From positions 5,777,257 through 5,841,256 of the forward strand of contig NZ_CP042913.1 of the NCBI RefSeq assembly GCF_008065115.1: a DNA stretch of 64,000 bases, in the 5' to 3' direction. This document shows positions 38,330 to 54,602 of this stretch, in pieces; the stretch's first letter is position 1, and the number at the start of each line of letters is the position of its first letter. The DNA comes from Bythopirellula goksoeyrii. GTDB lineage: Bacteria > Planctomycetota > Planctomycetia > Pirellulales > Lacipirellulaceae. A program made the position numbers and the translations under genes. The notes beneath the pieces are model-generated. The model had not been told where the DNA came from, did not search any database, and worked only from the letters and a program-made list of their open reading frames with translations.

Positions 38330-41300
38330 TCACCTCTGTTTGAACAACTTCTCCAACTGCCGATTGATCTCACCACCGATCGCCTGGCGGGCGGTTTCGC
38401 GCAGGAGTTGCTTGGTGAGGTTTGCCATGGCCTCTTGGTCGACACGGGGTTTTTCGAAGGTGCCGTAAATGGGGACTTGCAGGCTTTGGCCTGCGAGCCC
38501 TCTCAGCGCGTCTTCGCCATCGATCCAGCGGTCTTGGATGGGGATGTCGATCATCAGAGCCAGGCTTTGATCAAATCCTACTGATCCTTGCGAGCGGACC
38601 GGCACGTCGTCGATTGTGAAGACCAGATTCCGGTGATAGACGCGACCCTCCACGACTTGAAACTCAATCTGCTGATCGTGCATTGAAAGCAGCTTGGCAG
38701 GTTTAGGGGCGACTCCCCCTTGCAACAAATCTTTGCCCTTCTTGATGGCTTGAAGCTGCTGGATCGTAGTTGCCAGGTCAGCCACCATGGGGCCAGGAAG
38801 GACTGTCAGTTCATGCACCGCCAGTCTACCTGCGGTGTTGGCAAGCTTGGGGGCATCCAGTGGGATCTTGGATTCCGCCAAATCGACCGAGAACTTGCCA
38901 TCGACGCGCGTCGCTCCTGCAAGGATTGGGGCCACGTATTTGAGCATCTCCTCACTCACCGCTGGCGAAATCTGCACATCGGTAACCAACGGACCTGCGG
39001 GGATTAACAAATGTTTTGGCAGTGGATCGAATACCACGCGGGGACTTGCCGAGAATCTGCCCTCGCCGACTGCAATGTCCAGCGGTGCGATCACAAGTTG
39101 GCCCGCGCCGAGCGAACCCTGAAAATTGCCTGCCGTGATGGGCAATCCGAACACCGAGGCTTTGGACCACCCACCTTCGGCGGTCGCTTGCCAAAGCTGT
39201 GACCAGTGCGCCGACTCTCCTTTGGGCATTCTGCCACGCGCTTCGAATCGCACGACACGATCTCCTTCGATGCGCACACCAGGGCCGGTATAGTTGGCGA
39301 TCAACCGGTCGAGTGACTCGGGATCGTAGTGGGCAGTTCCTTGGACTGCGATTTCTCCCCCCTCAACCGGTTTGTCCCAGGTCGCCATGCCAGTAAGTTG
39401 CAGCGTTTGACCGTCGATGCTGAATTTCTCAAGCGCTACCTGCTCGTCGGCGATCTTATAGATTGCCTTTCCGGTGCTATGCAGTTGAGGCTCGGACCAG
39501 ACAACTACCGGTGGTTGGCGAGTCGAGTTCTTGCTTGTCCCTGCGCGAACTAACTGCAAACCCTCTGCATCCAAGGAAAAATCTGCCAGAATCTGTTCGG
39601 AGTTGGTTGCCAAGCGCAACACGCCTGTCGCTGCACCACGTGGCCAAGTCGAATCGCGTCCACTTACGAGGCCCGCCGCTGCTGCCAACCGTTCCAAATC
39701 AGTGCGATAGGCAATCTCACCGGTCACGATAGGCAACTCGCCGGCCGCCAAATCAATCCGCACATCCCGCGAGCGGAACGCGACGATGCTTCCGGCGAGT
39801 TGGAATTCTTGCGAGTGGTAGTTGTTCGCCGCTGCGTTCCAGCTGCAATCTCCCGAAAAGTCAATGTGAGGGTCATCCACTGCCATCGACCCTTTGCGAA
39901 TATGCAGTTTATCAATGCTTCCCGCCAGATCGCTCACGGCCAATTCAACCGGAGTGATTGCGAGCTTGGCCTGCAGTTTGGCTTGGCCTGCGAACTCGTC
40001 GGGGATACCCTGCATCCAAGGACGCAAGCGGCCCGCCCAGGAATCAACGGGACCCGTGCCATCGATTTTTACCAGCCAGTTGCCTGCAGCGGAAAGATCC
40101 ACGGCCTCTAAGAGGGTCACTGCCAATTCATCGCGATCCCCATGCAGTATCATGGAACTGGTAGCGAGCGACTTCGGTAGCATATGGTCTGCTTGGCCAG
40201 CAGCACGCCAGTCCACCACCAACTGGGGTTCCTCCCACAGGAGGCGCTGCCCCTGGGTGACAACCAACTCGCTGAGCTTGACGTCCGCTTTGGCCTCGAA
40301 TTCGGTATTGTGAGTCGTCGTGTATTGAAAGTTTCCTCGCGCGAATCCTCGGCATTCCAGATCGCGCATGTCGATAAACTGTCCTGCCTGCTCAGCCATC
40401 TCGGCGAGGTTTACCTGAAAATCTCCATGCATCCGATCATCAGTCGTTACCACGGTTGCTTCTGCGGAAGGAGCCGTGAGCGTGAATCGATCCAAACGGG
40501 GACCAGCAGGCGAGTCCTTCCATTGTGCGGCAATCTTCACAGGTTCCTGAGAGCGAATTGCCTTCTCCCCATCTTGGCCAGCCAGGTTGGCCAGCGCGGC
40601 GTCAGCAGACCAGGTAAAGGCACCATCACGCAGTCCGCTGTTGGCATTCCACTCCACCTCTCCTGCATCGATGCGAACTCCGTCGCGTATTTGCAGCACA
40701 TGAGGCAGCATCTGCGCAAGTCGCGCGAGCGACACTTTGCCGGTGAGCTTGAACTCCCGCTGTGGGAGGTTCGCGAGACTGAAGGTCTTGAGTTCCTCCA
40801 GCGCCAGCGCCCCTTGAGCAGCAACTTCAGCCCAATCGCATTTGAGTTTCAATTCACTGATGCCAACTTCACCATGGGCGAAGCTCGCCTTCCATGGAAT
40901 CTCGAGCCGAGAGCACTCCAAGCGGTCCCCTTGGAGAACTTCGCCCGAGAATGTAAGAGAATCGCACTCGGTATGTCCCCAAGTCGAAAGAGTCAGTGGA
41001 CCCTCATTTTTCGGATTCCACAGGACATGGACATCGAACGCGGCGACACCTGCCAATTGGCAATCACCCAGCGTACGAAGCAACAAGGGCCGCAACGGTT
41101 CAAGCAACAATCCCTCAGCAATCATGTCTAGTTGCTGATGATTGTCGGCGGCCTCCTGGACGCGGATTTTGACGCTCCCCGTTTGATCGTCCGCATAGCG
41201 CACAACCGCCGAACCGTCTGCTGAGATAAGCCCACGCTCTGCCGCAAGGACAGCTTTGAGATTGGTTTGATCGACTTGCCATTTAGACTCGGCAGTCGTA

Positions 41301-41824
41301 TCGAAGCCGTGCACACTTCCATCGACGATGTCGAGTCGCAACGAGATTTTCTCTACAAGTTTACTTGGATCACCTGACTCTGCGGGGATTGATGCTCTGC
41401 GTTTGTCGACGGCAGCCAAGAAATCTTCCAGATTACTTCCATCGGAGCGAGTCGTCACATATGCCACGGGCTGCACGAGACGCACGGCACCCAAGTCTCG
41501 CGAATGCAGCGCGAGCCCCACTAGGGAGCGTTCAACAGTAAGCGACTCGACCGTCAACAAAGGATTGCCATCGGGAGCAACGATGGCCACATTCGTCAAC
41601 GATTGAGAACCAATCCAGGAAAGGCAGCCCTGCTCACTCTGAATGTGCCACCCACCCTGTGGCATTTGCCAATTCAAAAGCGTATCGCGCAGCGGCGAAT
41701 AGGCGATCATCGTGGGGGCAGCGGAGACAGTCACCACAACCAAAAGCAAGAGAGCAAACATACGACGCTTGAACCGACTCTTGCGGCGCGGTTGCCCGTC
41801 GTTCGAATTGCGGCGCCGTGACAT
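38330..41824 (-). CDS. Large AsmA-like envelope protein
   Basis: 1,164 residues from ATG 41824; two ATGs upstream (41836, 41905) are alternatives that I cannot separate. After a basic N-terminus there is one transmembrane helix ('FALLLLVVVTVSAAPTMIAY'), then a long beta-strand-rich periplasmic region, ending in 'AFMIDIPIQ'-like strands and a C-terminal 'LRETARQAIGGEINRQLEKLF'. This layout is that of AsmA/TamB-like proteins involved in lipid transport across the periplasm of diderms. Conserved in planctomycetes; not experimentally characterised to my knowledge. Confidence 0.75.
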   Translation of the reverse strand: MSRRRNSNDGQPRRKSRFKRRMFALLLLVVVTVSAAPTMIAYSPLRDTLLNWQMPQGGWHIQSEQGCLSWIGSQSLTNVAIVAPDGNPLLTVESLTVERSLVGLALHSRDLGAVRLVQPVAYVTTRSDGSNLEDFLAAVDKRRASIPAESGDPSKLVEKISLRLDIVDGSVHGFDTTAESKWQVDQTNLKAVLAAERGLISADGSAVVRYADDQTGSVKIRVQEAADNHQQLDMIAEGLLLEPLRPLLLRTLGDCQLAGVAAFDVHVLWNPKNEGPLTLSTWGHTECDSLTFSGEVLQGDRLECSRLEIPWKASFAHGEVGISELKLKCDWAEVAAQGALALEELKTFSLANLPQREFKLTGKVSLARLAQMLPHVLQIRDGVRIDAGEVEWNANSGLRDGAFTWSADAALANLAGQDGEKAIRSQEPVKIAAQWKDSPAGPRLDRFTLTAPSAEATVVTTDDRMHGDFQVNLAEMAEQAGQFIDMRDLECRGFARGNFQYTTTHNTEFEAKADVKLSELVVTQGQRLLWEEPQLVVDWRAAGQADHMLPKSLATSSMILHGDRDELAVTLLEAVDLSAAGNWLVKIDGTGPVDSWAGRLRPWMQGIPDEFAGQAKLQAKLAITPVELAVSDLAGSIDKLHIRKGSMAVDDPHIDFSGDCSWNAAANNYHSQEFQLAGSIVAFRSRDVRIDLAAGELPIVTGEIAYRTDLERLAAAAGLVSGRDSTWPRGAATGVLRLATNSEQILADFSLDAEGLQLVRAGTSKNSTRQPPVVVWSEPQLHSTGKAIYKIADEQVALEKFSIDGQTLQLTGMATWDKPVEGGEIAVQGTAHYDPESLDRLIANYTGPGVRIEGDRVVRFEARGRMPKGESAHWSQLWQATAEGGWSKASVFGLPITAGNFQGSLGAGQLVIAPLDIAVGEGRFSASPRVVFDPLPKHLLIPAGPLVTDVQISPAVSEEMLKYVAPILAGATRVDGKFSVDLAESKIPLDAPKLANTAGRLAVHELTVLPGPMVADLATTIQQLQAIKKGKDLLQGGVAPKPAKLLSMHDQQIEFQVVEGRVYHRNLVFTIDDVPVRSQGSVGFDQSLALMIDIPIQDRWIDGEDALRGLAGQSLQVPIYGTFEKPRVDQEAMANLTKQLLRETARQAIGGEINRQLEKLFKQR

Positions 41825-42087
41825 TGCGTAGTCCATCGCTGGCAAGGTACGCAACGAAAGCCGCGCACAGATCCCTCTCGAAGAAACGATTTTCCGATGG
41901 CCCATTCTAGGACTGTGAGAGAATCGAGCCTAGAGCGAGTGAAGCGCTGGCGCTGCTAGCATGGGAACTAGACGTCATTCCGAGGGGAGACGTAAGACCC
42001 AAGGCATCTGGATTGTTGCTGCAAAACCTAAGTGCTGAGCTTTTGGCACCGCTTCTATCTGCCGCAAAGGCTGACTACAATGCAATC

Positions 42088-42303
42088 ATGGCGAGCGTAG
42101 TCTCAACTAATCCGAACGTCTTGGGTGGAACCCCTGTATTCACTGGCACTCGAGTGCCAGTTAACTCGCTATTTGACTATCTCAAACGTGGCAGAAATAT
42201 CGACTATTTCTTGGAGCAGTTCCCTACTGTTCAGCGCAGTCAGGTCGAGCACCTACTGGATGAAGTCAAGATTCAGGCACTCGCCTGTCAATCACAGTCA
42301 TGA
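42088..42303 (+). CDS. DUF433 protein (antitoxin-like)
   Basis: 71 residues from ATG 42088; an upstream frame extends by 25 codons without support. It contains the DUF433 signature 'NPNVLGGTPVFTGTRVPV' and 'FLEQFPTVQRSQVEHLL', a helix-turn-helix-like fold. Its stop overlaps the next start by four bases (42300-42303). DUF433 proteins commonly pair with DUF5615 PIN-like toxins, as here. Confidence 0.85.
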   Translation: MASVVSTNPNVLGGTPVFTGTRVPVNSLFDYLKRGRNIDYFLEQFPTVQRSQVEHLLDEVKIQALACQSQS

Positions 42304-42620
42304 AGCTGCTTCTGGATGAAAACCTGCCGCATTCTCTTCGTCATGAAATATCTGGGCACGAATGTTTCACCGTGGCATATATGGATTGGGCCGGGATTGA
42401 AAACGGTGAGTTACTATCGCTCGCAGCTTCGTCTGGCTTTGGTGCATTTCTGACAAAGGACGCCAACCTTCGATACGAGCAAAACCTGATTGAGATACCG
42501 ATAGCTGTAGTAATTCTTCGGGCAGCAACAAATGACATCGACGATATTCGCCCACTTCTGCCGCAATTGCTCAAAGCATTGAGCCACTTGCAACCCAAAC
42601 AGGTAACAGTTGTTGCCTGA
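42300..42620 (+). CDS. DUF5615 PIN-like protein (toxin-like)
   Basis: 106 residues. Family features: 'MKLLLDENLP' with the acidic metal-binding pair at the start, 'DWAGIENGELLSLAASSGF' and 'FLTKDANLRYEQNL' with aspartate. These PIN-like proteins are thought to be RNases partnered by DUF433 proteins. The ATGA overlap with DUF433 supports a pair. Toxicity is inferred only. Confidence 0.85.
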   Translation: MKLLLDENLPHSLRHEISGHECFTVAYMDWAGIENGELLSLAASSGFGAFLTKDANLRYEQNLIEIPIAVVILRAATNDIDDIRPLLPQLLKALSHLQPKQVTVVA

Positions 42621-42629
42621 ATAGGAACC

Positions 42630-44876
42630 CTACAAATCAAAATTAAACGTCCGCTTCAGATAACGATACAAGCGGCTCGCCAGAGTACGCGGTTCCGTCT
42701 TGATGCGCGCCGTGCCGGTGAGGCCGTTGCGAAAGATACCGAGGGAATTGTCTAATTGCACTTCGGCCTGGTAGGAGGTGTCGAGTGGTTTGACCTCGCC
42801 TCCGGGATCGTGTTGGGCGGGTACTGCGCCCCCCGAGGTGCTGGCCAAGCGGGGGCTGATGCTTTTCATTTCGTCGTCGGCCACCGACTGGAGGGTACTC
42901 ACGAAGACATGGTAGGCTGACTCGTTAAACATGAGACGCACCTCTTGCCCTTCGCGCACCAGATCCAAATCGCTCTGATTGATCACCAGCACGGCATCCC
43001 ACTGGTTGGGATCGCCAATCTGGCAAAATAGATTCTCTGATCCATCGGGCAAGAAAGTGGCGCCCAGATTCTTTTCTTCCATTGGCCAACCCGACCAACT
43101 GGCAAGTTCGACCTCCTGATTTGAGCGGGCATCAGGCCGATACGGAGGGGGAATCACGGTACCGGCGCGCGGGGCAGTCAGTTCGAGCCGATCGAGGTCG
43201 CGCTGTTTTTGTACGAGTTGCTCATCGAGCGATGCTAAGCGTTCGCGGACCACGTCGATCTGTAAGCCGGCGTTTTGATCATAGTGCTGCATATCCTTAA
43301 GACTATCGAATTGACGTTGGCTCGCTTCGCGCTGCCCCTGAATTTTTTCTATCTCTAGCTCCAAATCGATGTTGCGTAGGCGAGCAAGCAATTGGCCTTC
43401 TTCGACGTTCTGGCCCGGTTCGACCAGCACTTCTTCGAGTGTCCCTGCCACGTCGATGTAGACCGACTCTGACCCGCGCGGCTGGAGTTCGAATTCACAA
43501 GTCACGCTCGACGGGAAAGGGATGAAAAGAATCCCACCCACCACAGCGGCCAACAATGCCAGCGACGCAAACATCCGGACCTTTTTCACTTTACTCACCC
43601 TCCCCGGTACACGGAAAAACTTGAACACTTTCCAAAATGGCATCACGATCATGCCATACAAAGATGCCACTGCAATCGCTTGCCCCAGAATCTTGAGTCC
43701 ATACGGCTCGAACACTTTGTTGAGAAAGTACAGAATCGAGAGCAGCACGACCCAGCGATAGAAGAACGATGCGACCGTGTAGAGCGCGAACCACCCCTGA
43801 TGGCGATGCGGCAAGAACGGGTCGTCAGGCTCTTCGAGTCCCAAGCACCACCAGCCGAGCTTGCGATTGAGAATCGTACTGGCCTTTTGGCGCAAGTTGG
43901 GGATCTCCATGATATCGCTCAGAATGTAATACCCGTCATAGCGCAACAGCGGATTCGCGTTGAACACGATGGTACTCACAGAACTGACGAACATGATGTT
44001 CAGGCAGAGGTAGTTCAAGAAGCCGGGCTCGCTGAACCACCAGATAAACGTGGCGATCGAGGCGATGACCACTTCTACATACATCCCCGCCGCACCAATG
44101 GCCGCCCGATGCCAACGATTCGGCAACATCCAGGAGTCGGAAACATTGCAATAGAGGCAGGGTGTGAGTACCAACAGCATGATGCCCATCTCGTGACATT
44201 CGCCACCGAAATGCTTGCAGGAAAGGCCGTGACCAAATTCGTGAATGATTTTTGTGACCGCCAATACACCGGCGATCACCAGCCAGTTCTGGGCGGCAAA
44301 GAACGAGTGAAACGACGGTAGCTTTGATTGAAATACATCGAACTGCACAATGACCAGCGACAGGGCACTCAATGCCAGGATGCACGCACAGATGGTCGCT
44401 GGCACCGAGAAAAACCAACGGACCCAAGGATAGATCGCATTGAGAATTCCCTCAGGATCGATCCCCCGCATGCGAAACGACAAGATGTTGCTGAAGTTTT
44501 GGATCAGCTCCTGCTTGCGTTTTTCGTCACGTCGCTTCTTGAGCTGAACCCCCTGCCCCGCCGAGTCGGAGAGTACCAACCCACTGCGGTGCAACATGCC
44601 GATAAAGTTCTGGAGTTCCTCGACTCGGATCGTCTGGGGCGGAAAATCTTTCTCAAACCGCTCGGCGATCTCCTCGAGGCTCGATTCCCCGTCAAGCATC
44701 TGCAAGATGGCGAACTCTTCTTCCTCAAAACGGAAGTACTGTAACCCCACAGGATCTTTGACCACCCAATAGACCCGCCCCTGGTAGCGCTGCTTGCGAG
44801 CCTTCAGATCAGGCCGTACCCGTATCGCCAGCTTACGCGACGAACTCGAAACGATGCTTTGAGCAAGGGTGGCCAT
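42630..44876 (-). CDS. PqqD-like domain / site-2 metalloprotease / HlyD fusion protein
   Basis: 748 residues with three parts. (1) Residues about 20-110 look like a PqqD/RRE-type peptide-binding fold ('YWVVKDPVGLQYFRFEEEEF', 'LVLSDS'). (2) About 140-440 is a multi-pass site-2 protease: zinc motif 'IIHEFGHGLS' (H212, E213, H216) and the second site 'NPLLRYDG' (D314). (3) From about 450 a biotinyl-lipoyl/HlyD membrane-fusion part follows ('VEPGQNVEEGQLLARL', coiled coil, beta-barrel). It is the third gene of an operon of membrane fusion proteins. The layout recalls maturation and export of modified peptides, but no precursor was found. Confidence 0.85.
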   Translation of the reverse strand: MATLAQSIVSSSSRKLAIRVRPDLKARKQRYQGRVYWVVKDPVGLQYFRFEEEEFAILQMLDGESSLEEIAERFEKDFPPQTIRVEELQNFIGMLHRSGLVLSDSAGQGVQLKKRRDEKRKQELIQNFSNILSFRMRGIDPEGILNAIYPWVRWFFSVPATICACILALSALSLVIVQFDVFQSKLPSFHSFFAAQNWLVIAGVLAVTKIIHEFGHGLSCKHFGGECHEMGIMLLVLTPCLYCNVSDSWMLPNRWHRAAIGAAGMYVEVVIASIATFIWWFSEPGFLNYLCLNIMFVSSVSTIVFNANPLLRYDGYYILSDIMEIPNLRQKASTILNRKLGWWCLGLEEPDDPFLPHRHQGWFALYTVASFFYRWVVLLSILYFLNKVFEPYGLKILGQAIAVASLYGMIVMPFWKVFKFFRVPGRVSKVKKVRMFASLALLAAVVGGILFIPFPSSVTCEFELQPRGSESVYIDVAGTLEEVLVEPGQNVEEGQLLARLRNIDLELEIEKIQGQREASQRQFDSLKDMQHYDQNAGLQIDVVRERLASLDEQLVQKQRDLDRLELTAPRAGTVIPPPYRPDARSNQEVELASWSGWPMEEKNLGATFLPDGSENLFCQIGDPNQWDAVLVINQSDLDLVREGQEVRLMFNESAYHVFVSTLQSVADDEMKSISPRLASTSGGAVPAQHDPGGEVKPLDTSYQAEVQLDNSLGIFRNGLTGTARIKTEPRTLASRLYRYLKRTFNFDL

Positions 44877-44887
44877 GTATGTCCGTT

Positions 44888-44967
44888 GTCAGTGGTCAGT
44901 GGTCAGTGGTCAGTGGTCAGTTGCAAATTCAACACAACTGACCACTGGCGACTGACTACTGACTACT
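44888..44967. repeat. Tandem GTCAGTG heptamers with an inverted partner
   Basis: Five successive GTCAGTG/T units cover 44888-44922, followed 13 bases later by inverted copies (CAACTGACCACTGGCGACTG...GACTAC) to about 44967. The two halves can fold together. It lies between the two fusion-protein genes of the operon. Such short tandem repeats are common in planctomycete genomes; a regulatory role is unproven. Confidence 0.6.
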
Positions 44968-44974
44968 CTAACCT

Positions 44975-45865
44975 CTATTTCAAATGGATTGTCATTTTCG
45001 CGCGTTGGCCCATGCCTGGTTGCACGACCCAGAAGCCGTCTTCTTTGATGTTTTCGACTTCGGCTCGTACAATGTAGTTGCCGCCGCTTTCGATCAGTTG
45101 GCCTACATGGACCACTTTGCCGGGCAAAGTAATTTCACGGCCACGAGCACGGGGAATCGCCACGGTCACATCACGGCCCTGGAGTTCATTGCGATCATAA
45201 TTCCTGGCGGGGACTTGGGCCTCGACGTACAAGGTGTCAAACCGCATCAGGGTAAGAATCGGGTCTCCCGGATTAACCCACTCCGATTTTTCGCGGTAGA
45301 GCTTGACGACCTCTCCTGTGAATGGGGCATGGATAACTCGCTTGTTCAAAGCGACCTGGGCGGCTTCGAGTTCCGCCCGCTTGGTGTCGGCTTCCAAGCT
45401 GGCCATTACGCGGTCTTTTTGCGCTTTCTCGGTTTGGAGTTCCGACTTCTTTACGACCAACTCTTTCTGAGTGATCTCGATATCAGGGACCGAGAAGGGC
45501 GTTCGCACGTTCGCTTCCTGGCTTTTCTCCAAATCGATCCTGGCAACATCCGTTGCCGCTTTCGAATAGCGCTCTTCAATGTCGTCTTTGACCCGCTCCT
45601 CGGCCGCTCTCAAACCAGCCTGGGCAGCTCTTACCGCAGCCTTTGCTTCGCGGTCGTCGATTACGGCAATTGTCTCTTTTTCCTTGACCTGCGATCCCTC
45701 GATTACAGGCAGTTCCATGAGAACACCATCCTTTTGTGCGGGAATCTCCACCTCGTCTTTCACTTTGACGATACATCGTTCAAAAACAGGGTCGGTGGTG
45801 GACTCGGCGGCGAGCGCAAATGGATTCGCGACGACGAGCAACAGAAGTGACAACAACATTCTCAT
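44975..45865 (-). CDS. HlyD-family periplasmic adaptor
   Basis: Start at ATG 45865 (296 residues), after an AGGA site; the longer frame starts 23 residues earlier. Signal peptide, then the lipoyl half-motif 'EVEIPAQKDGVLMELPVIEG', a long coiled coil (about residues 75-190), the second lipoyl half ('VIHAPFTGEVVKLYREKSEW') and a beta-barrel with 'GQLIESGGNYIVRAEVENIK'. Such adaptors bridge inner-membrane pumps and outer-membrane channels. It lies between the GAF-HlyD and PqqD/S2P/HlyD genes; no pump gene adjoins. Confidence 0.85.
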   Translation of the reverse strand: MRMLLSLLLLVVANPFALAAESTTDPVFERCIVKVKDEVEIPAQKDGVLMELPVIEGSQVKEKETIAVIDDREAKAAVRAAQAGLRAAEERVKDDIEERYSKAATDVARIDLEKSQEANVRTPFSVPDIEITQKELVVKKSELQTEKAQKDRVMASLEADTKRAELEAAQVALNKRVIHAPFTGEVVKLYREKSEWVNPGDPILTLMRFDTLYVEAQVPARNYDRNELQGRDVTVAIPRARGREITLPGKVVHVGQLIESGGNYIVRAEVENIKEDGFWVVQPGMGQRAKMTIHLK

Positions 45866-45984
45866 GGCTAGTTTCCTAGATATTCTCTTACATGTTTTAG
45901 TAGCCCTCGCCGGAAGGCGGGGGTGAGCGATCAACCCCGCACCTTCCGGAGAGGGCTAGTAAAGTTGGTATTGTGGCAACGAAG

Positions 45985-48123
45985 CTAGAGCCTGAACAAG
46001 ATCCGCGACTGCACGAATTCAAATAAGTCGTGCAACATCACATAGCCCACAGGCTGCTTGCCGCATAGGATCTTGGCTTTTGCGTCGGCCCCCACTTTGA
46101 GTTGATTCGCCGGATCGTCGACCAAGCGTTTCAGGTCTTCCTGTGGAAAAGAGACCCGGATGCGAACCGTGTTGCCTTCTTCCCCCATTACTTCGGCGCT
46201 GGTGTCGATTTCTTCGACGGTTCCGGTGAGATGCTCGGCGGAGTGAGTCGCCAGGATGAACGAGACCTGCAACTTAGCGTCAGGATCTTTCTCGCGAAGT
46301 TTCTGCTGATACTCAATGACGTGCCCCATCTTAGCTTCAGGGAGATAAATCTCTAGCTCCCAATCCTGGGAAGGATCGGCCACCTCCATCAAGCGATTTC
46401 CCGGACTCACACGACGATTTTCCAGCTTCTCCCGCACGCGAAAGGTGGTCACTTTCCCATCGATGGGGCTCTCGACCGTGAGTCGTTCTTTTTTCTGCTC
46501 CAAGAGTTCGTACTGTTTCTCCAAACTGATACGAGTCGCCTCAAGCTGAGCCAAACGTCCGGTGAGTTGTTCCATGTCGGCAGGGTCTTCCTGCGGATTG
46601 TTCAGGTGCATTTGTCGCTGACGATCCGTGGTGGCAATCTCCTCCAACGTGCTTGCTAGCTCCCCTTGCAACTCGGCAAACTGACCATCAAGGTCCAAGC
46701 TCTGCATGACGGCTAACACGTCTCCCTTTTTGACGGACTCCCCATGATTGACAGGAACTTTAGTCACAAGACCATCGATCCCGGCAAAGACGTTGCGGCG
46801 CACTTCGGGGAGCAGCTTGCCATCGGCCACCATGGTAAAATCGTAGGGAACTGTACAGAGTGCGAAAATGGCCCCCGCAATGGCAATCGCAGCCAGGAGC
46901 GTCTTGGGCAAATTTCGTGCGGTCAAGAGAACCTTGGTTTTGCCCAAGGCTCGCCACAAGGGCAAAAGAAACAACCCTTCGAAGTCCTGGGCATTGGTCA
47001 ACGACGTTGCACTATGGCGGCGCACTACATCGATTCGCTGCAGCATCCCTTCGGGGGGCCGGCTATCGACGAGCTGCTCGATGACAATGGCCCCTAGGAT
47101 GTTCTCGCGGCGTTTGTCTTTTTTGTCCTCGGGAGTCTCCTCAAGATCCTTGTCCGATTCCCGCAAAGGCAACACGGCCAACTGCTTGGTGTGCGATTCA
47201 TCAACGTAGGCGTTGACCGCTTTCTCCACTTGAGGAGCCAGATCGGCCGTGTCACCGGTAAACCAGAGGTCTTCCCCTGTGCGTGAGACCGTGGTCGCGA
47301 GATTCTTGAGCAACCTGACCACATTCGACCGCTTGTCAAATGTATCCTGTCCGCTGATGGCCGAGACTTCGTACTTGGATCCCTTGCGCAATACCACCGT
47401 GACACGGTCGCAACCGATTAAGCGGCGTCCCTCGTTGGCAATTGTGTAGGCCGTTTCGCGTGAGTCGAGCGCCTTGTGTACAAGCGTCGTAAAAGCTTCG
47501 AGCTGCTCCCACAAGGTTTGCTTGGTGGCGAAATGCAAGAGACGACGATTCTTGAGGTACTCTCCTGCCAAGTCGCTGATCTGCACCAGAAATCGCAGAT
47601 AGCCACGCTGCGTGGTTGGCCGTCCCCCAGTGCGCTGAAAGACTTCCATCACCCCTTCGACTCCCCGATCGCTCACTATCGGCGCGAGCACCAAGAGATA
47701 CTCTGTGGGATTCGCGGCGGCCTCTTCGTTTTCAGCGTCGCCTCCTGAATAAGGAGGAATGATCGTCGGCTCTGCCTTGCCAATCACTTGCGTAAGCAAT
47801 CGGCCATGCTGAACCTGGGCTTCTTCGCTTTGAGCTAATCCAGTCTCACGAAGATTGACCTGATACTCAAGTTTTAACGGACCACCCTCTTCGAGCATCC
47901 AGACAACGCCACTGACAGCCGCTAACGCCGAAACGGTCTTGTCCATCGTGGCCGAGAAAAACTCATTCGGCTCGATTTCCGATTTGCTCAGCTGAACAAC
48001 TTCTTGGACAAGACTTTGAATCTCAAACTTTGCGCGCTGAATCGCCTCGTCATCGAGCGACGCGCCAGCCCCCTGGCCGGCAGTGGCTTGGGATGGATCC
48101 GAGGAAGAAGAAGATGTCGACAC
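45985..48123 (-). CDS. GAF-domain / HlyD fusion protein
   Basis: 712 residues. After a serine-rich start come two GAF-like domains (about residues 40-180 and 200-375), one transmembrane helix near 405-425 ('LLAAIAIAGAIFALCTVPYD'), then the HlyD half-motif 'VFAGIDGLVTKVPVNHGESV', a coiled coil and the C-terminal barrel. The cytoplasmic GAF part could sense a ligand and control the adaptor. First gene of the three-gene operon, reading away from the palindromic repeat at 48154-48224. Confidence 0.85.
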   Translation of the reverse strand: MSTSSSSSDPSQATAGQGAGASLDDEAIQRAKFEIQSLVQEVVQLSKSEIEPNEFFSATMDKTVSALAAVSGVVWMLEEGGPLKLEYQVNLRETGLAQSEEAQVQHGRLLTQVIGKAEPTIIPPYSGGDAENEEAAANPTEYLLVLAPIVSDRGVEGVMEVFQRTGGRPTTQRGYLRFLVQISDLAGEYLKNRRLLHFATKQTLWEQLEAFTTLVHKALDSRETAYTIANEGRRLIGCDRVTVVLRKGSKYEVSAISGQDTFDKRSNVVRLLKNLATTVSRTGEDLWFTGDTADLAPQVEKAVNAYVDESHTKQLAVLPLRESDKDLEETPEDKKDKRRENILGAIVIEQLVDSRPPEGMLQRIDVVRRHSATSLTNAQDFEGLFLLPLWRALGKTKVLLTARNLPKTLLAAIAIAGAIFALCTVPYDFTMVADGKLLPEVRRNVFAGIDGLVTKVPVNHGESVKKGDVLAVMQSLDLDGQFAELQGELASTLEEIATTDRQRQMHLNNPQEDPADMEQLTGRLAQLEATRISLEKQYELLEQKKERLTVESPIDGKVTTFRVREKLENRRVSPGNRLMEVADPSQDWELEIYLPEAKMGHVIEYQQKLREKDPDAKLQVSFILATHSAEHLTGTVEEIDTSAEVMGEEGNTVRIRVSFPQEDLKRLVDDPANQLKVGADAKAKILCGKQPVGYVMLHDLFEFVQSRILFRL

Positions 48124-48153: not shown

Positions 48154-48224
48154 GTAGGGTGGGCACTGCCCACCAATTTCAAAACGAATCGAATATGGCT
48201 ATTGGTGGGCAGTGCCCACCCTAC
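48154..48224. repeat. 71-bp element with perfect 24-bp inverted ends
   Basis: Positions 48154-48177 and 48201-48224 are perfect inverted copies of one 24-base sequence beginning GTAGGGTGGGCACTGCCC. Each arm contains its own smaller palindrome (GGTGGGCA / TGCCCACC). This resembles the GGTGGGC-type repeats of planctomycete genomes. No coding potential. Confidence 0.85.
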
Positions 48225-48530
48225 GCTAATTCTATATTCTCTGCCCCAATAGAGTTACGTCAAACTCGCTCAGTACCTTTGAATGTCTCCACCTCCCCCC
48301 TGGAATCGTCAAAACCCTCGCAATTCGCCCTAAAGCCTCCCGAATAGGTGTCAAAAGCCAAATTCAAGAGACCTCATGGTTACCCAGCAGGACAGATAGC
48401 CTATCCATTTGCAGACGCCCACCTTGGTTTGTGGTATTAAAAATGGTAATATTAGAGAGCTTGGCGCAGTAACTCCCCACAGAGCGAATGTCAGGCACAT
48501 CGGTAACCAGTTATCTCACTCGGAGAATCT
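48225..48530. other. Intergenic stretch upstream of infA
   Basis: No gene or RNA is recognised. The AT-rich part near 48430-48455 (TTGTGGTATTAAAAATGGTAATATT) may carry the infA promoter, but spacing to a -35 box is not convincing. Confidence 0.35.
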
Positions 48531-52175: not shown

Positions 52176-53072
52176 CTAACGAGGCTTCACGGCAAAGATG
52201 CGGACGCTCGCAGCGAAATCGTTCACGTTGTACCGCCGCAGGAGGTCGGCTAACTGGGCGTGCACGTCGCCCGAGAGGGGCGGTGCTCCACAGCACTCCT
52301 GCGTTTCAAGAATTTCTATTCCATTGCCAGCGCTCGCCGCTGGGACGCAGCAAGCCGCATTCTCCGCTTGGGCGTAAGCGTTCAGGTCGGAACCCGTGTC
52401 TTGGATCTTGACCGCCCCGAAACCTGCCGCCTCAAGCTCGCTCTCATATTGGGCAATGGGTATCGCCCCGGCGATGCAGCCGATGTACGCCGGTAGGTTC
52501 TCGCTGACTTCGGCGGGGAGCGGCTTTTTTAGAGCGATATCGCTCACCGCGAACCGGCCACCCGGCTTTAGAACGCGATACACTTCGCGAAGCACCGCAC
52601 TCTTGTCTGGGGCGAGGTTGATGACACAATTGCTGATGACACAATCGACGGTGCCATCTGCGAACGGCAGGCTGTCAATTGTCGAAAGATGGAACTCGAC
52701 ATTTGCGAACGGCTTGCCTCCGTCTGCCTTCGCTGCATTGCGGCGCGCAAGATCGATCATCTCTTGGCTCATGTCGATGCCAACTGCTTTCCCCGTAGGG
52801 CCCACCTTGGGAGATGCCAAAAACACATCGAGTCCGCCCCCGCAGCCAAGGTCCACAACCACTTCTCCCGGTCGCAGCCCCGCGGTTGCCAAAGGATTGC
52901 CACATGAGAGTCCCATGTTGGCTTCAGCGGGAATTGATGCAAGTTCGTCTGCGGAATAACCAAACGCCTCGGCCACCGCCTTTACTCCCGCGTGGTCGCT
53001 CGACAGTCCCTTCGTGGCGACGGACGAATACTGAGTGCGAACTTCTTCGAGAATTGATTTGGAATCCGTCAT
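52176..53072 (-). CDS. arsM: Arsenite methyltransferase
   Basis: 298 residues from ATG 53072, preceded by GGAGAACC. The SAM-binding motif '[16 protein letters not shown]' is clear, and the arsenic-binding cysteines of ArsM are present in '[10 protein letters not shown]', '[13 protein letters not shown]' and '[10 protein letters not shown]'. It methylates arsenite to mono- and dimethylated species. The start codon overlaps the acr3 stop (ATGA), so it is the last gene of the arsenic operon. The C-terminal third contains additional cysteine pairs (ACC, ECC). Confidence 0.93.
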
Positions 53073-54172
53073 GATGGTTCTCCAGTACCTATTTGGACGT
53101 TTGAAAAAATGCGTCGTTGAAACCAAAACGCGACGCTGACTAAGCCAATCATCACCGGCACCTCGACCAAAGGACCGATGACCGCAGCAAACGCCACTCC
53201 AGAGTTGATGCCGAACACGGCGATGGCGACCGCAATCGCCAACTCAAAATTGTTGCTCGCAGCCGTGAAGGCTAACGTCGTGGTCTTGGAGTAGTCCGCC
53301 CCAATCTGGTGGCCCATGAAAAAGCTCACCAAGAACATGACCACGAAGTAAATGAGCAATGGTACCGCGATCAGTAGGACGTCGTAGGGAATGCGAACAA
53401 TCTGGTCCCCCTTGAGGCTGAACATCACCAGGATTGTGAACAGAAGTGCCACCAGCGTGAGAGGGCTGATCTTGGGTATAAAAACCTGCTCATACCAGTC
53501 ACGGCCCTTCGCCTTGAGGAGCACGAAACGTGTGACCATCCCTGCCAAGAAAGGTATGCCAAGATAGATAAATACACTCTCGGCGATCTGTCCCATACTG
53601 ACCACCACGACACTCCCTTCGAGCCCCAGCAGCGGTGGGAGCCAGGTAATAAAAAACCAGGCGTAAACACTATAGAACAGCACCTGGAAAACACTGTTGA
53701 AGGCGACGAGGCCAGCGGCATACTCGGTGTCGCCCTTGGCCAGATCGTTCCACACGATGACCATCGCAATACAGCGGGCCAACCCAATGAGAATCAGCCC
53801 CGTCATGTATTCAGGGTAATCGCGTAAGAAAATCACTGCCAATGCGAACATCAGCACGGGGCCGATCACCCAGTTTTGGACAAGCGAGAGTCCCAGAATC
53901 TTCCAGTTGCGAAAAACGTCCCCCAGTTCCTCGTACTTCACCTTTGCCAAGGGCGGATACATCATCAGAATCAGCCCGATGGCGATCGGCAGGTTCGTCG
54001 TACCGACTTGAAACCGATTGATGAATCCTTCGGTCCCTGGCAGAAAGTAGCCCACAGCAACGCCAACAGCCATCGCCAGAAATATCCAGAGCGTAAGAAA
54101 ACGATCAAGAAAACCGAGCCTGCCATGGGGGCAGCCGAGCGGCTCACATACCTCAGCTTTGACATCATCCAT
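53069..54172 (-). CDS. acr3: Arsenite efflux transporter, Acr3 family
   Basis: Start at ATG 54172 (367 residues), following a GGAG site inside the arsC gene. Ten transmembrane segments. The conserved cysteine is in '[19 protein letters not shown]', and other features are '[11 protein letters not shown]' and the final '[13 protein letters not shown]'. Acr3 exports arsenite from the cell using the proton motive force. It overlaps both arsC and arsM slightly, supporting one transcript. Confidence 0.93.
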
Positions 54173-54602
54173 GATTTGCATTCTCCAACGCACCAGGCAG
54201 CGAGGCAACAAAATCACGGATTTCGTCGCGGACACGCCGATAGTGGGCAATCCCTTCTTCCTCGGTCTCCGATTCGCGGGCCAGACGTGGTGGGTCGTCG
54301 AACGGGCAATGAATCACCCGAGCGTCTCCTGGAAACACCGGGCACGATTCAGCCGCGTTATCACAAACAGTCACCACGTAATCGAACTGAACGTGCTTCA
54401 AATCATCGACGTGCTGAGACTTTTGGTCTGTGATGTCGACGCCTGCCTCGGCCATTACCTTCACTGCATTGGGATTGAGCCCGTGGGTCTCGATGCCTGC
54501 CGAATAAGCATCAATTGTGTCAGCCTTGAGCTGACGGGCCCAGCCTTCAGCCATCTGGCTGCGACAGGAGTTTCCAGTGCAGAGGAAGAGTATCTTAGGC
54601 AT
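54165..54602 (-). CDS. arsC: Arsenate reductase, thioredoxin-linked LMW-phosphatase type
   Basis: 145 residues. The phosphatase-like loop '[13 protein letters not shown]' carries the first catalytic cysteine, and the redox cysteines are in '[16 protein letters not shown]'. It reduces arsenate to arsenite using thioredoxin. It lies 55 bases after arsR and overlaps acr3 by 8 bases. Confidence 0.93.

Follow-up and report, generated by a model that had tools for sequence, protein, structure and literature searches.

An RRE-protease-adaptor operon of Bythopirellula goksoeyrii as a probable envelope component of SecA-linked secretion, with LEPR-XLL proteins as candidate cargo

The window analysed here, 64,000 nt of Bythopirellula goksoeyrii contig NZ_CP042913.1 (positions 5,777,257 to 5,841,256), harbours three genes for membrane fusion proteins, all on the − strand. 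Their translations and Pfam domains agree with the operon of GAF-HlyD, HlyD and RRE/PqqD-S2P-HlyD proteins described in a first-pass annotation of this DNA. The gene at 45985-48123 begins with GTG and encodes a 712-aa protein that displays Pfam GAF and HlyD domains and a single hydrophobic segment (residues 404-433). Next to it lies a gene for an HlyD-type adaptor (Pfam HlyD), the ORF of which opens with TTG at 45934 and extends for 319 aa (44975-45934); the ATG at 45865 is the more likely start, as it would provide a signal-peptide-like N-terminus for the resulting product (44975-45865). The third gene, at 42630-44876, encodes a 748-aa fusion, recognised from the ORF, Pfam and NCBIfam, of an RRE/PqqD-like winged-helix domain (residues 18-103; 44568-44825), a membrane region corresponding to the S2P/M50 core (residues 151-460; 43497-44426) and an HlyD/MacA-like periplasmic adaptor domain (residues 453-731; 42684-43520), the last identified by both Pfam and structure searches. 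Pfam scores for this protein lie just above the respective cut-offs, at 27.4 bits for Peptidase_M50 (cut-off 27.2) and 22.5 bits for HlyD_3 (cut-off 22.2).

When translations were read by eye, no recognisable ABC, RND or TolC gene was seen at 36-54 kb of the window, and no SecA, TolC or LEPR gene adjoins the operon. None of the three proteins reaches the RND adaptor model TIGR01730 (42.0, 87.9 and 49.7 bits, with a cut-off of 94.9), and a PADLOC scan of three proteins returned no families. A number of other features in the vicinity were likewise recognised by eye. Downstream, and on the same strand, is a gene for a 1191-aa AsmA-like protein (38330-41905), whose family is seen next to the operon in 4 of 23 loci. 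A pair of small DUF433/DUF5615-like genes with a toxin-antitoxin-type appearance (42013-42620, + strand) is convergent with the S2P gene. Upstream of the trio are an IF-1-like gene and a 579-aa gene, as well as an inverted repeat, GGTGGGCACTGCCCACC / GGTGGGCAGTGCCCACC (48160-48225, upstream of GAF-HlyD), which resembles a small mobile or REP-type element. Genes for an ArsM-like methyltransferase and an ACR3-like permease adjoin at 52176-54250 (− strand), and are probably an arsenic-handling pair.

An AlphaFold2 model of residues 1-125 of the 748-aa protein, built from 27 sequences, contains three strands followed by three helices (mean pLDDT 85.4), which is the winged-helix arrangement of RRE/PqqD domains. 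Foldseek comparison of this model with the PDB returns TbiB1 and a lasso B1 protein (both with leader peptides), PqqD and TigE as its best eight matches, with probabilities of 0.99-1.00, but with E-values of 0.006-0.07, none being below 0.001. This ranking bears out the PqqD/RRE-type fold that had been suspected from the first reading. By sequence, the best PDB match for the region is TfuB1 (E 0.23, not significant), and the window protein scores 16.8 bits with Pfam PqqD (PF05402), below the gathering score of 23.4. Two of the three proteobacterial homologues scanned exceed that same cut-off (L068 and L071, with 28.7 and 24.1 bits, respectively), and the third, from Citrobacter (L069), has no Pfam match to PqqD. 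The domain is retained in all 27 aligned homologues, and its assignment as an RRE is well supported.

The membrane region of the fusion contains seven hydrophobic segments, a number that would make the RRE cytosolic and the HlyD domain periplasmic. Within it lie a HEFGH zinc motif (residues 212-216; 44229-44243), invariant in alignments, and a conserved NPLLRYDG sequence (residues 308-315; 43932-43955), the second zinc-site motif, which supplies the distal Asp expected of an S2P/M50 protease. The intact zinc site claimed at the outset is upheld by the alignment of 18 sequences, in which H212, E213, H216, N308, P309, D314 and G315 are all invariant. More broadly, HExxH is present in 104 of 104 planctomycete S2P ORFs of at least 650 aa, with the strict pattern for the second motif found in 99 of these, and in all 11 proteobacterial homologues, for six of which the second pattern is also found; the universal retention of HExxH argues that catalysis is under selection. 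The five lacking the second pattern derive from operons without a named SecA, on plasmids of E. coli, Citrobacter, Burkholderia, Thalassospira and Azospirillum. Residues 31-412 match the NCBIfam daptide intramembrane metalloprotease model NF041824 (E 4e-54, 184.2 bits), below its cut-off of 300 bits. This model is the best, or among the best, for all seven S2Ps scanned (139-184 bits; 139-173 for the six others), and in three of the seven the match begins after the RRE. A Foldseek search with the full-length 748-aa model gave only adaptor structures among the best 50 matches listed, and is thus uninformative on the S2P fold. Daptides were found as a class by way of such RRE-peptidase fusions, and PMC10036551 states in its discussion that MpaP, an RRE-dependent intramembrane peptidase, removes the leader; the precursors bear an ELExMEAP motif.

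With regard to distribution, an S2P homologue at E ≤ 1e-90 occurs in 57 of 59 genomes of the order, B. goksoeyrii included, and so the trio is not a chance assembly; the remaining two genomes (G005 and G034) display weak S2P matches only. Across a phylum sample, S2P-HlyD is found in 66 of 294 genomes. The B. goksoeyrii genome itself contains two paralogous operons (L015 and L016), each adjoined by an OEP/TolC-type protein, and L016 additionally holds a 1915-aa cadherin-repeat protein with an N-terminal LEPRILLSA sequence. The locus scan of relatives covered the best 80 of 504, nearly all of them planctomycete by title, and is uninformative on other phyla; the count of upstream genes took in 79 of these 80 loci, one having been dropped for a low S2P score. 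Amongst 44 loci from named records with 6.5 kb of upstream sequence, a TolC-type gene appears in one. On plasmids of E. coli and Citrobacter (L238 and L069) the S2P, adaptor and TolC genes accompany one for a giant Ig-like/cadherin protein, with no linked SecA.

B. goksoeyrii encodes a short SecA of 647 aa (Pfam SecA_DEAD, 357.5 bits) approximately 2.3 Mb from the window operon, with no other gene of the system found in an 18-kb stretch around it. In the phylum sample, where a short SecA was defined as an open frame of < 800 aa, a definition that also admits canonical SecAs truncated at contig ends, 20 of 47 short SecAs lie ≤ 10 kb from S2P-HlyD among the matches listed, with 0.38 expected under uniform placement in 4.5-Mb genomes. 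For longer SecAs the corresponding figure is 2 of 103 among the matches listed, and both (G092 and G060) are perhaps short copies whose frames run on. Five of the 47 short SecAs among the matches listed occur in genomes without S2P, some of them perhaps being canonical proteins cut by contig ends. Within the order, a short frame of < 800 aa at E ≤ 1e-100 is present in 52 of 59 genomes by hand count, one copy (G011) containing a single stop. In three loci from other families of the order (L225, L226 and L227), the short SecA is located directly upstream of the orthologous GAF-HlyD/HlyD/S2P trio, which suggests that the window operon has lost its SecA link. Against a SecA partnership, SecA appears in only 8 of the 44 loci from named records that extend 6.5 kb upstream, and among the matches listed a short SecA is present for only 37 of 66 S2P genomes (G092 and G060 included).

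A short SecA at ≥ 45% identity was found on 12 plasmids, and 11 of these have an S2P ≤ 2 kb away among the S2P matches listed, as read by hand. In annotated alphaproteobacterial operons, the gene immediately following S2P is labelled SecA, 'DEAD/DEAH helicase', 'prepilin peptidase' or hypothetical, with the SecA-type gene of L235 being one gene further away. Three such proteins that were scanned are SecA-like, yet fall below SecA cut-offs and far below those for SecA2; six were included in the tree described below. No SecA is named near the operons on the E. coli, Citrobacter, Burkholderia, Thalassospira and Azospirillum plasmids. In a tree of 53 hand-picked SecAs, produced by a quick method, 35 planctomycete and 7 alphaproteobacterial short forms are divided from 11 canonical proteins by a 100%-supported branch, and the alphaproteobacterial forms nest amongst the planctomycete ones. 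Alignment of four short SecAs to E. coli SecA shows that the ATPase motifs and cross-linking regions are kept, and that coverage is 0% over what we take to be the borders of the helical wing and two-helix finger. For the operon family as a whole, a partnership with SecA is well supported. The claim of a system with no pump stands for 36-54 kb of the window, as read by eye, but not as a property of the system: in many relatives the operon also encodes a SecA-like ATPase, and in some a TolC-type protein.

Proteins with an N-terminal LEPR-XLL sequence emerge as the candidate cargo. The NCBIfam LEPR-8K domain, a weak model of 24 positions, scores above its cut-off in 53 of 59 genomes of the order versus 1 of 14 control genomes at a loose setting; at E ≤ 0.02 it is found in 31 of 294 phylum-sample genomes and in none of the 14 controls. 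S2P-HlyD is present in 29 of those 31 (Fisher p 1.5e-19, uncorrected for kinship), and a family-stratified comparison of 58 genomes from 11 families, hand-built from the tabulated subset of the 294, gives p 0.002. Eight of 95 LEPR matches fall ≤ 15 kb from S2P, with 1.1 expected on the same assumption of uniform placement. Counting against the link, 37 of 66 S2P genomes have no LEPR match at E ≤ 0.02. B. goksoeyrii contains ten weak LEPR matches, three of which are above the cut-off. Of nine giant proteins examined beside proteobacterial operons, five begin with a LEPR-XLL sequence: MEPRVLLSADP in Pontibrevibacter, LEPRFLLSADP in Pseudosulfitobacter, IEPRILLSADP in Thalassospira, LEPRVLLNADV in Methylosinus and LEPRLLLSADF in Mesorhizobium. 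Two more display what by eye appear to be variants (LEPRVVYDASV in Burkholderia and LESRQLFDGAA in E. coli), and those of Alisedimentitalea and Azospirillum have no leader at the annotated start. Co-occurrence, adjacency and common N-termini thus support LEPR proteins as the putative cargo of S2P-HlyD operons. The small peptide originally suggested as cargo does not fare well in this light, since the linked genes encode LEPR-XLL proteins, many of them giant.

Much of this gene arrangement has been noted before. Kamneva, Poudel and Ward (2015; PMC4452313) reported a secondary SecA_DEAD protein together with M50-HlyD, HlyD, GAF-HlyD and sometimes OEP in Planctomycetes and Proteobacteria; SecA is suggested there as the ATPase and M50 as the pore, a regulatory and sensory role is suggested for the GAF protein, which the first-pass annotation also saw as a possible sensor, a locus in Methylobacterium extorquens AM1, an operon of four genes, is named, no ABC transporter was found, and the broader role is termed "completely unknown". 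The window trio likewise encodes M50-HlyD, HlyD and GAF-HlyD together, and the secondary SecA_DEAD protein of B. goksoeyrii is not adjacent, as with the unlinked copies that the paper describes for some genomes. The window operon therefore belongs to the 2015 locus, and its SecA gene lies elsewhere in the genome. The initial statement that the system is not characterised accordingly holds in the experimental sense, within the literature searched, but the locus itself had already been described in 2015. That paper names neither an RRE domain nor a cargo, and PqqD and LEPR each have zero occurrences in its main text. The RRE domain, LEPR-XLL proteins as the likely cargo, and the conserved zinc site are what is newly added here. 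An LEPR-XLL protein of ~8000 aa is termed novel in PMC10868602, in a passage that does not name TolC or HlyD, and PMC9611531 is a second LEPR-XLL paper; a link to S2P-HlyD operons was not found in print within the literature searched.

Taken together, we consider it probable that the operon encodes the envelope components of a type-I-like system, driven by SecA, that secretes giant surface proteins. The cytosolic RRE of S2P-HlyD would bind the N-terminal LEPR-XLL leader of the cargo, as fold and linkage suggest, and the intramembrane zinc protease, judging from its family and intact zinc site, would then cut that leader much as MpaP is said to do for daptides. The short SecA paralogue, encoded elsewhere in B. 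goksoeyrii and linked to the operon in relatives, would drive the chain with ATP across the inner membrane, either through SecYEG or through a portal built by S2P, and the S2P-HlyD, HlyD and GAF-HlyD adaptors, by virtue of their families, may dock a TolC-type outer-membrane channel. We infer leader cleavage and the order of these events. In B. goksoeyrii an OEP of the TolC type stands beside both paralogue operons and is lacking beside that of the window. Such a system would share HlyD adaptors, a TolC-type channel and giant repeat-protein cargo with HlyB-HlyD-TolC type I secretion. The signal for type I secretion is C-terminal, whereas that proposed here is N-terminal, and the proposed system has a SecA-like ATPase in place of an ABC transporter, none of which was recognised by eye at 36-54 kb of the window or by name inside annotated operons.

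Somewhat more tentatively, with a confidence falling a little short of even, these operons may constitute a distinct secretion class. An RRE would read the LEPR-XLL leader on proteins of up to ~12,900 residues, the protease would remove it, a stripped-down SecA would replace the ABC transporter, and adaptors and TolC would form the duct. This would be a core machine of the planctomycete order of B. goksoeyrii, one that Alphaproteobacteria share, and present on enterobacterial plasmids without a linked SecA. If so, two loose ends would be joined, namely the conserved secretion-like locus of 2015, without a known role, and the LEPR-XLL domain, and some of the largest bacterial proteins would acquire both an export route and a signal. 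RRE-leader recognition would likewise reach beyond the small (RiPP) peptides that have been its known setting so far, and SecA would be used outside of the standard translocon. The proposed tag and cargo also make the role of the locus testable.

The alternative that survives best, although we regard it as unlikely, is that S2P serves structurally, as an inner-membrane portal fed by SecA, with proteolysis secondary or absent. Because it is fused to an adaptor, the membrane domain sits at the foot of the duct; five of the 11 proteobacterial homologues give no pattern match for the second zinc motif; and the single SecY match in the B. goksoeyrii genome implies that there is no dedicated SecY2. 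Against this, the complete conservation of HExxH in planctomycete and proteobacterial S2Ps alike argues for selected catalysis, and S2P folds are not known to act as protein-conducting channels. Such a portal was proposed by Kamneva et al. (PMC4452313).

Considerably less probable is a role of the trio in the maturation and export of a small RiPP-like peptide, with S2P as its leader peptidase. The RRE fold and the kinship of S2P to daptide and epipeptide proteases do point this way, and both the window protein and MpaP/DapP (NF041824) fuse an RRE to an M50 (PF02163) peptidase. The window S2P nevertheless attains just 184 of the 300 bits required and has an extra HlyD domain, and neither daptide enzymes nor a short precursor were recognised near the operon. 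Amongst ORFs of at least 60 aa, no family of < 160 aa is shared by more than 3 of the 23 loci, and no RiPP-modifying enzyme was recognised by name amongst annotated operon neighbours. The occurrence of S2P across nearly all of the order is also unlike that of a patchy RiPP cluster, and the genes that are linked encode LEPR proteins.

That the trio supplies the adaptors to an ABC or RND exporter of small molecules or lipids whose genes are scattered, with LEPR and SecA links being confined to paralogue operons, is just as doubtful: only the trio is linked in the window, the 32 HlyD_D23 match stretches in the genome indicate many other adaptors, and SecA is scarce beside related loci, but a short SecA directly precedes the orthologous trio in L225-L227, the RRE is kept throughout the 27 aligned homologues, and no ABC or RND transporter is named inside annotated operons (a peptide/nickel-type ABC set in L066 lies ~8 kb beyond the operon). 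A classical accessory Sec system (SecA2/SecY2), which similarly employs a second SecA and is proposed for large surface proteins, was rejected on account of the single SecY, the absence of the wing and two-helix-finger regions from the short SecA, and scores for three short SecAs far below the SecA2 cut-offs.

Finally, both Alphaproteobacteria and Planctomycetota have loci in which a gene for a small DUF3467 protein neighbours the operon (L068, 12863-13144; L225, 6074; L227, 6672), and B. goksoeyrii possesses one DUF3467 gene, situated away from the operon.
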